This document shows positions 9,735-19,929 of a stretch of DNA of 53,398 bases, in pieces (the stretch's first letter is position 1; every line of letters begins with the position of its first letter). Made by a program: the position numbers and the translations under genes. This stretch comes from a virus: positions 1 to 53,398 of IMG/VR virus record IMGVR_UViG_3300044639_002247; one strand, given 5' to 3'. A model generated the notes under the pieces. That model did no database searches, was not told the DNA's origin, and saw nothing but the letters and a program-made list of their open reading frames with translations.

Positions 9735-10013
9735 ATGATATTTTTAATAAAAGTATTTACATATCTAAACTGTAAAGACTGTTTGCGTCACATACAGACA
9801 CTTCGCGAATATTGTGATCGCACCCCAACACGTCTAGAGATTATTGACGTTGACGTGGAAGAAAATCTACCGCTTATATTTGAATATAAAATAGCTGGTG
9901 TACCTCACACTATATGTTATAACATACGCGGCGAAATTATGTACAGCTTTTTTGGCGTAAAGACGTCAGAAGAATTTGACAATATTGTCTATTATAGAAT
10001 AAACGATCAATAA
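9735..10013 (+). CDS. Thioredoxin-fold protein, 92 aa
   Basis: Starts MIFLIKVFTYLNCKDCLRHI: a beta strand followed by the redox motif Cys-Lys-Asp-Cys at the start of a helix, as in thioredoxins and glutaredoxins. IIDVDVEENLPLIFEYKIAG and the cis-proline element GVPHTICYN follow, and the final helix is present. It probably reduces disulfides, for example for ribonucleotide reductase, but the partner is not visible here. The gene starts 13 bp past the terminator, and its last 7 bases overlap the tail end of the tape-measure gene on the other strand, so the two transcription units converge. Confidence 0.8.
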   Translation: MIFLIKVFTYLNCKDCLRHIQTLREYCDRTPTRLEIIDVDVEENLPLIFEYKIAGVPHTICYNIRGEIMYSFFGVKTSEEFDNIVYYRINDQ

Positions 10014-12595
10014 CCTAAAGCAGTACCAGTAAATAATGGCATCATTGGAGATGCATTATTATTTACATTACTGCTGCTGACGTTACTCACGTTTCCTCCG
10101 CTGTTATTATTTACCACTACGGTTGTTGCCGTAGCTGCAACATTTCCAGCTGTTGCTAACGTATTACCGGTAGATGGTGGAACTGTTTGTATGTTATCTT
10201 TCTCTTTCCACGCAAATTTTGCTTTTTCATATTCATCATATGATTTATAGCCAGCCGCCGAAGCTTTTTCCTCCTTAGACATCTTTGAAAATCGTATGTC
10301 ATCTTTCTCTTTCCACGCAAAGTTTGCTTTTTCATATTCATCATATGATTTATAGCCAGCCGCTGAAGCTTTTTCCTCATCTGACATCTTTGAAAATTTA
10401 TCGGTTGAAGTAGCCTTTGCGATTTTTTCAATCTTATCAATCGGGAAATTATCTAGAGCCTCAATTTCATCTCCAAGTCCAGCCAATGCAGCTATCCCCT
10501 TTGATAGACTTAATACGCCCGCGCCAGCGGCAGCTAAACCTCCTCCAATAGCAGCAAATTTCTGTAATTGTTCTAGTGGACTATCAGATCCAAATCGCAA
10601 TAGGTTTCCAACAAATTGTCCTAACCCAGCCAAAGCGTCACCTGCACCAAAGGCAGCAAGTGCAAGAGCAAGAGCACTAATTGCCTTTGCAGAATCAAAT
10701 ATTTTTGCTGGATCCAACGCGTTCGAGAACGTCGTAAATTTTTCCATAAAATTTCCTATGCCGTCTCCAACTAAACCAGTTGCTGCACCAAGTGCAAGGA
10801 CTCCAACTGAGAATGGTATCATCGCCAAGCCGCCTAATGCTAAACCAGCCGCACCTTTGAGTAGACCCATTCCCAAATCGCCAATAGCTTTGCCAATCGG
10901 TCCTAATACATCAGAATCAATTTCGCTTATTTTCTTTAGTGAGTATGCAAGTGGAATTAATGAAGCTCCCAATAGAGCTATTACTACAGCACCAGTCGCA
11001 ATAAGAGGCGCAGCAGAACCAATTACTGCTGCTGCGATGCCCAATCCAGTAATTGCCGCAGCAACTATACCTAATGTTTCCCATTTTACCCCTTGAAGCA
11101 TTTTTAACGAGTATGCAAGTGGGATTATTGATGCGCCGAGAACGGCAATAGCGAGCGCGCCCTTTAAAACCATACCCATATTTTTACCAAGCACAGATGC
11201 GGCAAGGGCCAATCCGCCGAGGGCTGCGCCAGCAACTGCTATAGTTTTTAAATCAATATCCTTAAATAACTTTAGTGAATATGCCAGCGGAATCATTGAC
11301 GCGCTTAGCAACAGTATGCCAAAAGCACCCTTAATTATTGCTCCAGAAACTTTTCCAAGCTTTTCACCAAAATAGCCGAGTGAATCACTAATGCTTTTCA
11401 TTGGCTTAACAATGCCACTTGCTATTTTTTTAATTACATCAGTAAACTTTTTAATTATTTCTATAGGCAACTTAGAGAGTGAACCTAAAAATAACTTTAA
11501 TGCCTTTACTGATAAAAGAGTTTTAACCCATTTTATACTCGCAAATGCAGTCAATGACTCGCCAATACTTTCTAATGGCGTTAACGCAGCAGAAACCCGT
11601 TTTAAATTTTTAGCTGCCTTTAAATTTTCTGGTGAGGCCGCGCCCTTGAAGGCTATATTCAGCACCTTATTGAATATTTTAAATTTGACTAAGCCTATCA
11701 TAGCTTTAGTCAAATTAATATTTGCAATGCCATCAATAGCCGATGACAACAAATTCAATGGTTGTATTATTCCTTCTATAGTTGATTTGTCAATTCGTAT
11801 TTTTGAAACTTCGTCAACTAATTTTTGTATACCGCCAACGTAAGATTTAATAAGCGAAGTCGGTATTGCATTTAACATTAACCCCTTCGTTATACTAGAT
11901 AAATCTGGTAATTGTATATTGCCAAAACCGGCGACTGGCGAATTGGTGTTTGCAGCTACCGAAGTGTTTGTCCTACTCGGCGAATTGGTGTTTGCAGCTA
12001 CCAACGTGTTTGTCCTACTCGGCGAATTTAGTCTCACTAATGCACCAAGTTGTTTCTTTAAATCTGATGCAATGCTTATCAGTCTTTCTAGAAAGACTGG
12101 AACATCAGATGTATTATTTGCAACTAACTCGGTATTATTTACAACTAACTCGGCATTAGGTGCTAGCGATGATGTATTAGTATTATTTGCAACTAACTCG
12201 GTATTAGTTGCTAGCGATGATGTATTAGTATTATTTGCAACTAACTCGGTATTAGGTGCTAGCGATGATGTATTAGTATTATTTGCAACTAACTCGGTAT
12301 TATTTGCAACTAACTCGGTATTATTTGCAACTAACTCGGTATTAGGTGCTAGCGATGATGTATTATTAACACTAGCTAAATTTAGTCTCACTAATGCACC
12401 AAGTTGTTTCTTTAAATCTAATGCAATGCTTATCAGTCTTTCTAAAAAGACTGGAACATCAGTTGTATTTTCTCTCGCAGCAGCCGACGCCAACGTAAAA
12501 TTATAGTTATCAACTGTATCAAGAATTAAATCTTGAGACAAATTGGAACTCTGTAATTCTTTTACTATTTGTGTTAGCGCCGTATTTTCGTTCAT
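10007..12595 (-). CDS. 29: Tail tape measure protein (gp29 position), 862 aa
   Basis: Sets tail length. Residues 1-60 are helical (MNENTALTQIVKELQSSN). A highly repetitive Asn/Thr-rich part follows, then long hydrophobic and helical stretches with at least three copies of a IPLAYSLK-centred unit of about 50 residues, and a duplicated 35-residue unit near the end (KASAAGYKSYDEYEKA twice). The Ser/Asn-rich C-terminus ends SPMMPLFTGTALGY. It follows the gp26 chaperone, as tape measures follow their chaperones in other tailed phages. I start at 12595: this ATG overlaps the stop of the -1 chaperone frame (ATGA), while the longer frame from 12664 would only read that frame's DNA. By the usual 0.15 nm per residue the tail would be about 130 nm. 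Confidence 0.8.
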   Translation of the reverse strand: MNENTALTQIVKELQSSNLSQDLILDTVDNYNFTLASAAARENTTDVPVFLERLISIALDLKKQLGALVRLNLASVNNTSSLAPNTELVANNTELVANNTELVANNTNTSSLAPNTELVANNTNTSSLATNTELVANNTNTSSLAPNAELVVNNTELVANNTSDVPVFLERLISIASDLKKQLGALVRLNSPSRTNTLVAANTNSPSRTNTSVAANTNSPVAGFGNIQLPDLSSITKGLMLNAIPTSLIKSYVGGIQKLVDEVSKIRIDKSTIEGIIQPLNLLSSAIDGIANINLTKAMIGLVKFKIFNKVLNIAFKGAASPENLKAAKNLKRVSAALTPLESIGESLTAFASIKWVKTLLSVKALKLFLGSLSKLPIEIIKKFTDVIKKIASGIVKPMKSISDSLGYFGEKLGKVSGAIIKGAFGILLLSASMIPLAYSLKLFKDIDLKTIAVAGAALGGLALAASVLGKNMGMVLKGALAIAVLGASIIPLAYSLKMLQGVKWETLGIVAAAITGLGIAAAVIGSAAPLIATGAVVIALLGASLIPLAYSLKKISEIDSDVLGPIGKAIGDLGMGLLKGAAGLALGGLAMIPFSVGVLALGAATGLVGDGIGNFMEKFTTFSNALDPAKIFDSAKAISALALALAAFGAGDALAGLGQFVGNLLRFGSDSPLEQLQKFAAIGGGLAAAGAGVLSLSKGIAALAGLGDEIEALDNFPIDKIEKIAKATSTDKFSKMSDEEKASAAGYKSYDEYEKANFAWKEKDDIRFSKMSKEEKASAAGYKSYDEYEKAKFAWKEKDNIQTVPPSTGNTLATAGNVAATATTVVVNNNSGGNVSNVSSSNVNNNASPMMPLFTGTALGY
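10191..10400 (-). repeat. Two tandem 105-bp units in the tape-measure C-terminus
   Basis: Units 10191-10295 and 10296-10400 are nearly identical and each encodes 35 residues containing FSKMS.EEKASAAGYKSYD. They mark a recent duplication near the C-terminal end of the tape measure. Confidence 0.85.
11937..12020 (-). repeat. Two tandem 42-bp units in the tape-measure gene
   Basis: Two copies of a 42-bp unit beginning GGCGAATTGGTGTTTGCAGC (forward strand), differing in a few bases, encoding a 14-residue Ser/Asn/Thr-rich repeat (SPSRTNT.VAANTN). They adjoin the downstream 84-bp repeat. Confidence 0.82.
12025..12462 (-). repeat. 84-bp direct repeats flanking a minisatellite in the tape-measure gene
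   Basis: Two 84-bp copies (12025-12108 and 12379-12462, two mismatches seen) encode VFLERLISIA.DLKKQLGAL. Between them, about 12111-12366, lies a tandem array built from a 21-bp unit (ATTTGCAACTAACTCGGTATT) and a longer unit carrying GGTGCTAGCGATGATG. The protein reads NTELVANN many times over. All unit lengths are multiples of three, so copy changes keep the frame. Confidence 0.85.
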
Positions 12596-12768
12596 TTTTT
12601 CTGTTTTGCTTCTTCTTCTTTTATATAATTTATTAATAGCGTGATATAAATCTCCCTCTCCCATGGCAACATATTATCCAATTCCGTTAAACTATACTTG
12701 TGATGCTGAAGTAATGAAAAATTAGTTTGATAATAATTACTTAATGATTCATGTGAGAGGGCTATTCG
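12592..12768 (-). CDS. -1 frame extension of the gp26 tail chaperone, 58 aa
   Basis: An open frame in the -1 phase relative to gp26. It is open from 12798 and ends at TGA 12592-12594, which overlaps the tape-measure ATG. After the slippery site it adds 58 residues: RIALSHESLSNYYQTNFSLL, then QHHKYSLTELDNM, then LPWEREIYITLLINYIKEEE and a Lys-rich end. The LPWEREIYI..L element resembles the second domain of frameshifted tape-measure chaperones (the lambda T, P2 E' type). No ATG, GTG or TTG lies near its beginning; the only internal ATG (12672) would leave 26 residues. The frame is best explained by frameshifting. In T4 its counterpart may be gp51, which I cannot confirm. Confidence 0.72.
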   Translation of the reverse strand, partial: RIALSHESLSNYYQTNFSLLQHHKYSLTELDNMLPWEREIYITLLINYIKEEEAKQKK

Positions 12769-13475
12769 AAAAAAGATTGTATTCCAGATAGAGTCATATC
12801 ATTATCTTTTTTACACTTAACGCACTTAAATTTAATATTATGTTCAAGTTTGGGTGACTGTGCAATATATTGCTCTATTTTAGAAAGTTGAGCGCGATTT
12901 AAACTATTGACAAATGTCAATAATTCCTCATGCGACGTTTCATCGGCTCTATAGACGCCATTGTCATCAAAAATTGTCTCGATCGATGCAATAATCATGT
13001 TTGTTATTGCATCCATATTAATATTAGAGTCGTCGCCAACAACAGACGACATATCATTAACTTTAATATATTGTAAAATTATACCTATTTTATCGGTTAG
13101 CATAATTTTATTACTTAATTTGGCTTCTGGCCAAACGAGTTGTATTTCATCAATGTTTATAGCAACTTCGTTATATGTTTCGCAATGTTCACACTTACAT
13201 TTAATATTACTAATTTCGCCTACGCTTTTTGCTCGTAACTTTAAGAAAATATATTCAATATCAAATGATGTTAATTGCTCAGTCTTTATATTGTTAAATG
13301 TACATACGTGTATAATATCTTTAATAGCAGATATCATTTCAGCAGAACTATTTGCTTCCTGCGCAAGTAGTAATATCTTTTCTTCTTTTACAAGAAATGG
13401 GCGATACTCAATTGACTGCGACGTTGATGGTACAGTCAATACATATTTTGGTGATTCAAGTGTTGGTAATGGCAT
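12762..13475 (-). CDS. 26: gp26-like baseplate hub / tape-measure chaperone, 237 aa
   Basis: Matches the T4 base plate protein family (Pfam PF12322, from memory): the start MPLPTLESPKYVLTVPSTSQ followed by the conserved YRPFLVKEEKILLLA, then a helical domain. Two Cys clusters (CKCEHC near residues 92-97 and CVKCKK near the C-terminus) probably bind one zinc. In T4, gp26 acts in hub assembly. Its place right before the tape measure and the overlapping -1 frame make it the likely short form of a tail chaperone pair. The coding end is CAA TCT TTT TTC GAA TAG, which contains the slippery heptamer. A weak late-like AATAAATA lies upstream. Confidence 0.85.
   Translation of the reverse strand: MPLPTLESPKYVLTVPSTSQSIEYRPFLVKEEKILLLAQEANSSAEMISAIKDIIHVCTFNNIKTEQLTSFDIEYIFLKLRAKSVGEISNIKCKCEHCETYNEVAINIDEIQLVWPEAKLSNKIMLTDKIGIILQYIKVNDMSSVVGDDSNINMDAITNMIIASIETIFDDNGVYRADETSHEELLTFVNSLNRAQLSKIEQYIAQSPKLEHNIKFKCVKCKKDNDMTLSGIQSFFE
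12768..12774 (-). promoter_or_regulatory. Slippery heptamer T_TTT_TTC, candidate -1 frameshift site
   Basis: In the gp26 frame the codons are TCT TTT TTC GAA TAG, giving T TTT TTC, which fits X_XXY_YYZ. Slipping both Phe tRNAs back by one base gives TTT TTT and continues as CGA ATA GCC into the open -1 frame. The stop lies two codons downstream. A GGA about 10 bases upstream could act as a Shine-Dalgarno-like stimulator. No strong downstream hairpin is evident by eye. Confidence 0.7.
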
Positions 13476-18890: not shown

Positions 18891-18979
18891 TAATTGATAC
18901 ATTAACATTTGCCGACTGCAAGGAAAATGCAGTACAACAGTATAGGTGTGTCGTTTTAATCACCACAAAATTAATATGA
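18887..18979 (+). CDS. Micro-gene coupled to both neighbours, 30 aa
   Basis: ATGA overlaps on both sides: its ATG (18887) overlaps the hub stop, and its TGA (18977-18979) overlaps the ATG of the gp5-type gene. It reads MIIDTLTFADCKENAVQQYR, then CVVLITTKLI. Such double coupling rarely arises by chance and would carry ribosomes from the hub gene to the peptidase gene across an 85-bp gap. Function unknown; it may serve as a translational relay or as a tiny hub factor. Confidence 0.55.
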   Translation: MIIDTLTFADCKENAVQQYRCVVLITTKLI

Positions 18980-19929
18980 GAATTGATAACTGGTTTGCCG
19001 CTATTGTAACAAATATTGCTGATCCACTGGGTGCAGGTCGTATACAGGTTCGGTGCTATGAGTATCACGAACTCGACGATGCAAATAGAATACCAGACGA
19101 AAGATTACCATGGGCCACACCAATGTTGCCAATTACAAGTGCCAGTAGTTCTGGTGTAGGCACCAGCGCTACTGGATTAATGGTCGGCAGCTGGGTATTT
19201 GGTTTTTTTAGAGATGAAGATTTGCAAGATCCAGTTGTAATTGCAACAATACCCGGATCTACAAACCTAAGTGGAGGAGGCGCCGATATACCAGATGACG
19301 CATCGGCAGCTTCTGTTGGTGCTTCATTTGCCAGTGCAACAAATACTTCTCAGTATGTGGGGGATGCGCCAGTGGCAAATACTGCAAACACTACAGCCTT
19401 TGGTGACAAAGCTATGCCTGGAGCGGCGGGCGGGATTGTAGGACCACCTGCACCAGCCACAGTATATACAAAGACTCTTGAAAATACATCTAATTTTATT
19501 ACTAATGGTGCAGATATGGCTGGTCTAAATTCCGAATTTAGACAGCGATGTGAAAATATGGCAGCGGAATACACACAACTGACCGGTAAAAGAATGACTG
19601 TAACTGGTAAAAGAAGTGCCTATAGAACATATGACCAACAGGTTCAGATTTATAACACTGCTAGAAAAGGATATGCGGCGACACCCGGTACATCTAATCA
19701 TGGTTTTGGATTTGCCCTCGATGTTAATTCCGCAGACGTCAATAAAGCTGCTCAACTAGGTCTTTTAACAAAACACCGTCTATTTAGGCCAATGATGAGT
19801 GCTAAGTTGTTTGAACCATGGCATATAGAACCTATAGGACTTGACAGATCTTATCTGGCACAATATCGTGGCCGAAAAGAGTCTGGGAAATTTACTGGAG
19901 ATCAACTTGGTGCTGCCTTGCCAACATAA
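18976..19929 (+). CDS. 5: gp5-type hub OB-fold protein fused to an M15 peptidase, 317 aa
   Basis: The N-terminal domain (DNWFAAIVTNIADPLGAGRI, QVRCYEYH, LPWATPMLPI, VGSWVFGFFRDEDLQDPVVI) is the OB fold of T4 gp5. In place of the T4 lysozyme there is a peptidase M15 (VanY/D-Ala-D-Ala carboxypeptidase-like) domain: SNHGFGFALDV with Ser240, His242 and Asp249, and EPWHIEP with catalytic Glu280 and zinc ligand His283. It would cleave peptide cross-links of the cell wall during DNA injection. The beta-helical needle of gp5 is encoded by the next gene. The start at 18976 is set by the ATGA coupling. Confidence 0.85.
   Translation: MRIDNWFAAIVTNIADPLGAGRIQVRCYEYHELDDANRIPDERLPWATPMLPITSASSSGVGTSATGLMVGSWVFGFFRDEDLQDPVVIATIPGSTNLSGGGADIPDDASAASVGASFASATNTSQYVGDAPVANTANTTAFGDKAMPGAAGGIVGPPAPATVYTKTLENTSNFITNGADMAGLNSEFRQRCENMAAEYTQLTGKRMTVTGKRSAYRTYDQQVQIYNTARKGYAATPGTSNHGFGFALDVNSADVNKAAQLGLLTKHRLFRPMMSAKLFEPWHIEPIGLDRSYLAQYRGRKESGKFTGDQLGAALPT

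Follow-up and report, generated by a model that had tools for sequence, protein, structure and literature searches.

Does translation of the gp26-like gene in the virus record IMGVR_UViG_3300044639_002247 always end at its stop codon, or do some ribosomes move into the -1 frame and make a second, longer tail chaperone? The stretch analysed comprises positions 1-53,398 of this record (referred to below as the window) and carries all features of the chaperone locus on the minus strand. A previous examination limited to the letters themselves (the sequence-only reading) had proposed a programmed -1 frameshift giving a 237-residue short and a 294-residue long chaperone. Comparative evidence strongly supports this proposal, and we consider it very probable that the phage makes both forms by -1 slippage, with an RNA stem downstream of the slip site probably helping. 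The central features are:

12762..13475, minus strand: gp26-like gene (short form, TAC-N), 237 amino acids (aa), identified by PF12322 (T4_baseplate), phrog_150 and alignment with T4 gp26
12764-12762, minus strand: stop codon TAG of the gp26-like gene
12774..12768, minus strand: slippery heptamer T_TTT_TTC, in phase and kept in relatives
12592..12768, minus strand: -1 frame extension (TAC-C), 58 codons (12768..12595) plus TGA (12594..12592), identified by dN/dS, phrog_634 and the T4 gp51 C-terminus

The slip site and the -1 frame extension

The gp26-like open reading frame (ORF) ends ATA CAA TCT TTT TTC GAA TAG. The sequence-only reading had described the last five of these codons and placed T_TTT_TTC in them in the right phase, which is exact. 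It was also accurate about the -1 frame, with its 58 codons, the junction F-R-I-A-L, the element LPWEREIYI and the ATGA (12595..12592) in which the TGA of the extension overlaps the ATG of the following 862-aa ORF. The predicted fused product is 294 aa long.

A scan of viral contigs provided 80 relatives at 35-73% identity (81 sequences with the window). A wider survey covered 261 loci, 255 of them with the extension in the -1 frame; searches starting from the Vibrio and Aeromonas phage genes yielded just two and four loci, respectively. As the sequence-only reading would lead one to expect, the heptamer stands at the same place in the relatives: all 81 sequences have an in-phase T_TTT_TT near the end of gp26, the next base being C in 52, T in 28 and A in one. 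TTTTTTN is present in 253 of the 255 loci with a -1 extension (TTTTTTC in 206 of the 253, T_TTT_TTT in 45), both exceptions being Ackermannviridae phages. Elsewhere in gp26 genes in-phase X_XXY_YYZ heptamers occur at 0.005 per codon. From codon usage alone, and taking the relatives as independent, the chance of xxT TTT being kept in 50 divergent relatives is about 10^-21.

The extension itself is under purifying selection across the relatives. Its median pairwise ratio of nonsynonymous to synonymous substitution rates (dN/dS) is 0.23, compared with 0.33 for gp26 in the same pairs, and is 0.12 between the window and its relative L001. Over the same stretch the remaining two frames contain about 5.7 stops each on average and are never open. 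Judged from these comparisons, the -1 frame is not due to chance.

One concern is that a sequencing or assembly error in the T run conceals a single fused gene of the T4 gp51 type, since homopolymers are prone to such errors and T4 gp51 is encoded by one fused ORF. The break recurs, however, in 80/80 relatives from separate metagenomes and in isolates such as S-PM2, P-SSM2 and phiM19, and most loci read TTTTTTC, a run of six T only. With independent genomes carrying the same break, this explanation is already refuted in practice.

Homology searches assign the two parts of the locus. The gp26-like short form matches PF12322 (E 1.1e-58) and phrog_150, baseplate hub (E 7.4e-64), and can be aligned with T4 gp26 (E 4e-14). 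The extension matches phrog_634, 'baseplate hub assembly catalyst' (E 1.2e-27); scanned alone against Pfam and NCBIfam it gave nothing usable. It had been described as a gp51/E'-like domain. The extension alone does align with the C-terminus of T4 gp51 (residues 201-244, E 1e-5), but T4 gp51 (249 aa) is the equivalent of the whole fused protein: its residues 16 to 244 align with the fused form including the extension (E 7e-8). The comparison with E' holds as an analogy; the extension profile has no significant match to P2 E' (hhalign E 0.11, six columns) or to lambda T (E 0.71). With a gp26-type N-terminal and a gp51-type C-terminal domain, the predicted products belong to the T4-superfamily gp26/gp51 chaperone family. 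A structure prediction for the short form, made without an alignment, was of low quality (mean predicted local distance difference test score, pLDDT, 38.7).

The extension could instead be a separate small protein (annotated 'gp51') produced by reinitiation near the gp26 stop. Deposited cyanophage annotations do contain short separate gp51 genes, and TAATG is present at the stop in some loci of Vibrio phages and Ackermannviridae. In the window, however, the first possible start (ATG, GTG or TTG) is codon 30 of the 58, the first ATG is codon 33, and no start codon occurs where the frame is open upstream of the slip, so that the earlier statement that no usable start lies near the beginning of the extension holds. 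Annotated starts vary between phages and would truncate the conserved domain, the homologue in T4 is a fusion, and reinitiation gives no reason for the heptamer being kept. We regard it as very improbable.

Three Ackermannviridae loci (L094, L095 and L104) have gp26 homologues with a -1 extension and a PW element and lack a canonical heptamer. Since TAATG is found at the stop of L094 and L104, a different route may lead to the long form or to a small separate product.

RNA structure around the slip site

The sequence-only reading overlooked an RNA stem that starts 6 nucleotides (nt) after the slip site. The elements flanking the heptamer are:

12755..12761, minus strand: stem 5' arm CCCUCUC, beginning 6 nt after the heptamer, identified by folding energy, synonymous-codon control and covariation
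12654..12660, minus strand: stem 3' arm GAGAGGG, over the PWERE codons of the extension, with 7/7 pairs to the 5' arm
12782..12786, minus strand: site of the Shine-Dalgarno-like (SD-like) element of most relatives; the window has UGGAA only, weak or absent

We folded the 120 nt downstream of the slip site and used dinucleotide shuffles and synonymous-codon recodings as controls. A first set comprised 50 divergent sequences and a second, independent set 41 relatives sharing less than 70% identity with the first set and among themselves. Folding windows of 50-80 nt missed the stem because its main class closes at about 115 nt; with 120 nt there was a clear structure excess. In the window the minimum free energy is -26.9 kcal/mol (z -2.42 against dinucleotide shuffles), and none of 60 synonymous recodings folded as stably. 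The first set gave a mean z of -2.31 against the synonymous-codon control, with nucleotides +7 to +14 more paired in 49/50 sequences. The second gave -2.30, with pairing highest at +8 to +13.

When the start of the 5' arm was left free, the best-helix score peaked (19.2) at 6-7 nt after the heptamer, compared with 15.7 at the overlapping 8-9 nt and 9-11.6 elsewhere; scores of at least 20 were reached by 44% of real sequences and 3% of synonymous shuffles. In the main group the partner of the 5' arm is formed by the PWER(E/Q) codons, some 100 nt further downstream. The 3' arm lies over the PWER codons in 34/61 sequences and elsewhere in the others. No Rfam family matches the stem region. Together, the retained heptamer, the -1 frame under protein-level selection and the RNA structure a few nucleotides downstream are features expected of a programmed -1 frameshift site.

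The distance between heptamer and stem also bears on the idea that RNA polymerase, rather than the ribosome, slips on the T run and that the long form comes from an altered mRNA. The 45/253 loci with T_TTT_TTT, having runs of 7-8 T, would suit this. On the other hand, the 206/253 loci with TTTTTTC offer only a short run, the phase exactly fits tandem tRNA-Phe slippage, and an mRNA stem at a fixed distance of 6 nt suits a ribosome and not a polymerase. We give polymerase slippage very little credence.

The two arms covary. Pairs seen include CCCUCUC/GAGAGGG, CUCUCUC/GAGAGAG, GCCUUUC/GAAAGGC and CCCUUUC/GAAAGGG, and one base pair couples the residue before L-S-H (A, or G/S/C) with the E or Q after P-W-E-R. 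Over all 50 unselected rows both sides changed in 33 cells, against 17.7 in shuffles. The 32 stem-competent rows gave 28 such cells, where shuffles gave 10.9 and slid versions 0-8, and RNAalifold recovers the same stem from these rows; the 50-row result is the fairer of the two because picking stem-competent rows favours the stem. In a tree-aware count, pair 15-120 changes together in 4.7/6 independent comparisons with none opposite, and pair 18-117 goes in the same direction on few comparisons. The stem at 6 nt is thus conserved and covarying, and would be expected to stimulate slippage.

It could, with the frameshift still real, be kept for another purpose, such as masking the SD-like sequence GGGAGAGG at the PWERE codons or adjusting how strongly the following gene is translated. 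The main-class 3' arm is indeed itself SD-like and the next gene begins shortly past the extension. In other lineages, however, it is the 5' arm that stays 6 nt after the heptamer while the 3' arm is elsewhere, and in the cyanophage S-PM2 a local hairpin of 14 bp takes the place of the stem. Another purpose for the stem is unlikely.

An SD-like core is present upstream of the heptamer in 40/50 relatives, in 37 of these 8-9 nt before it. Pairing with the anti-SD sequence averages -5.97 kcal/mol at this site, while other parts of gp26 give -0.3 to -2.7. Only just upstream of the heptamer is the pairing in excess of that in synonymous recodings (-1.15 +/- 0.26).

Several observations weigh against slippage aided by a stem and an SD-like element. 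The window's own SD-like element is weak (UGGAA, with no strong core). In about one-third of the divergent relatives the stem does not form in the register used by the window, and four loci (L039, L065, L073 and L078) as well as Aeromonas phage CC2 show no structure excess. The tree-aware counts rest on few supported branches, pair 14-121 has no clear direction, and the alternative 3' arms were taken from single-sequence folds. In addition, gp26 interiors also fall below zero against synonymous recodings, with mean z between -0.5 and -0.8 and one region at -1.6, so that absolute z values overstate the stem effect. T4-type gp51 genes gave z -0.5 to -1.6 in the same control; the structure excess of the extension is clearly beyond both.

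The exceptional gp26 region, codons 20-63 in the relatives (mean z -1.61), is a second stretch with excess RNA structure.

Proposed mechanism and neighbouring genes

We propose that most ribosomes end at the TAG and release the 237-aa gp26-like short form. In a minority, the tRNA-Phe molecules on UUU and UUC would slip back one base in tandem on U_UUU_UUC. These ribosomes would bypass the stop and append a C-terminal domain of 58 residues; the resulting long form of 294 aa is the counterpart of the whole of T4 gp51. The stem, lying at the mRNA entrance of a ribosome positioned on the heptamer, would pause it and so probably aid slippage; in most relatives the upstream SD-like sequence probably contributes as well. 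By analogy with lambda gpG/gpGT, the tape measure would be coated by many copies of the short form and few of the long one, and these would bring in tube subunits.

We also lean, somewhat more than not, towards a wider interpretation, in which the T4-superfamily chaperone frameshift is a dnaX-like cassette. Its 5' arm would be fixed 6 nt past the slip while the 3' arm was moved between coding stretches by lineage, and RNA pairing would constrain the codons, and even the residues (A with E, G/S/C with Q), of the C-terminal domain. The stem provides a concrete candidate stimulator, and one coding stretch appears to serve protein and RNA together.

On the minus strand, genes for head closure, the DNA end protector and the tail tube come, in this order, before the gp26-like gene, which is followed by a long gene that the sequence-only reading took for the tape measure:

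10007..12595, minus strand: probable tape-measure gene, 862 aa, its ATG overlapping the TGA of the extension as ATGA

Position, length and internal repeats agree with this assignment; a profile search of the window proteins recognized no tape measure. The ORF is probably the tape measure. Tandem repeats within it have a 48-bp unit (about five copies) and a 105-bp unit (two copies), at 12111-12365 and 10189-10397. Elsewhere, at 18946-19929 on the plus strand, the window encodes a gp5-like hub protein that combines a Gp5 OB domain and a D-Ala-D-Ala carboxypeptidase domain of the VanY/M15 type, where T4 gp5 has lysozyme.

Relation to T4 and other known systems

A 2016 review described the G-T frameshift as conserved among long-tailed phages 'except T4'. 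In the genome comparison of Sullivan et al. (2010), cyanophage and vibriophage gp51 were short of about 200 N-terminal residues and Aeh1 was without gp51. A frameshift would explain the short cyanophage gp51. The annotation of Aeromonas phage CC2 (L090) lists no gp51, although its sequence contains T_TTT_TTC and a -1 extension; an unannotated extension of this kind may account for the gp51 reported missing in Aeh1. The frameshift layout and such unannotated extensions therefore leave many deposited genomes with a shortened 'gp51' or none.

The sequence-only reading had suggested that a frameshift here would bring T4-type tails into the general scheme. According to citing papers, this was already published by Vladimirov, Gautam & Davidson (2022, Virology 566:9-15), who identified the T4-like tail assembly chaperone genes. 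The PRFect paper (PMC10885494) cites this work for T4-like phages with one short and one fused gene, and the phage Adele paper (PMC12846349) for poly-T slip sites in T4-like chaperone genes. On this evidence the window locus is a further probable case of a published frameshift. We found no description of a conserved stem 6 nt after the heptamer in the searchable literature, in which Vladimirov et al. is represented by its citing papers only.

T4 itself has separate genes 26 and 51, as the sequence-only reading had stated, and they lie on opposite strands. Its gp26 corresponds to the short form and its gp51 to the whole fused form; T4 therefore encodes the two forms as two paralogous genes, and T4-type gp51 genes have neither heptamer nor frameshift. 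The T4-type phages IME13, Acj9, Aeromonas 31 and a Klebsiella phage likewise have a separate gp51 of 248-252 aa. KVP40-type Vibrio phages and Aeromonas phage CC2, also Straboviridae, retain the frameshift layout. In a tree of gp26 domains, T4-type gp26 and gp51 are grouped against the rest (support 81/91), which is compatible with, though not proof of, a single duplication origin. The abstract of the Vladimirov study reportedly describes frameshifting as conserved in several T4-like groups, with separate genes in T4.

The cyanophages (S-PM2, P-SSM2 and others) have the same layout, heptamer and -1 extension as the window, but their gp26 and gp51 are deposited as separate genes, gp51 with an arbitrary start, and in S-PM2 and P-SSM2 local hairpins take the place of the long-range stem. 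In Vandenendeviridae/Andersonviridae, the paper on phage Adele (PMC12846349) likewise reports that the chaperone gene has a poly-T site with a conserved -1 extension; the motif is given as GTTTTT, and the available text mentions no RNA stem.

Lambda G/GT and P2 E/E+E' share genome position and logic with the window, whose gene also stands directly upstream of a putative tape measure and would give a short and a long form; P2 slips on T_TTT_TTG. The likeness does not extend to a significant sequence match between the window extension and lambda T or P2 E'. Compared with Escherichia coli dnaX, the shift here would make the long form, the stem is long-range and the window's own SD-like element is weak, but in most relatives the SD-like element, slippery heptamer and downstream stem follow one another in the same order as in dnaX.

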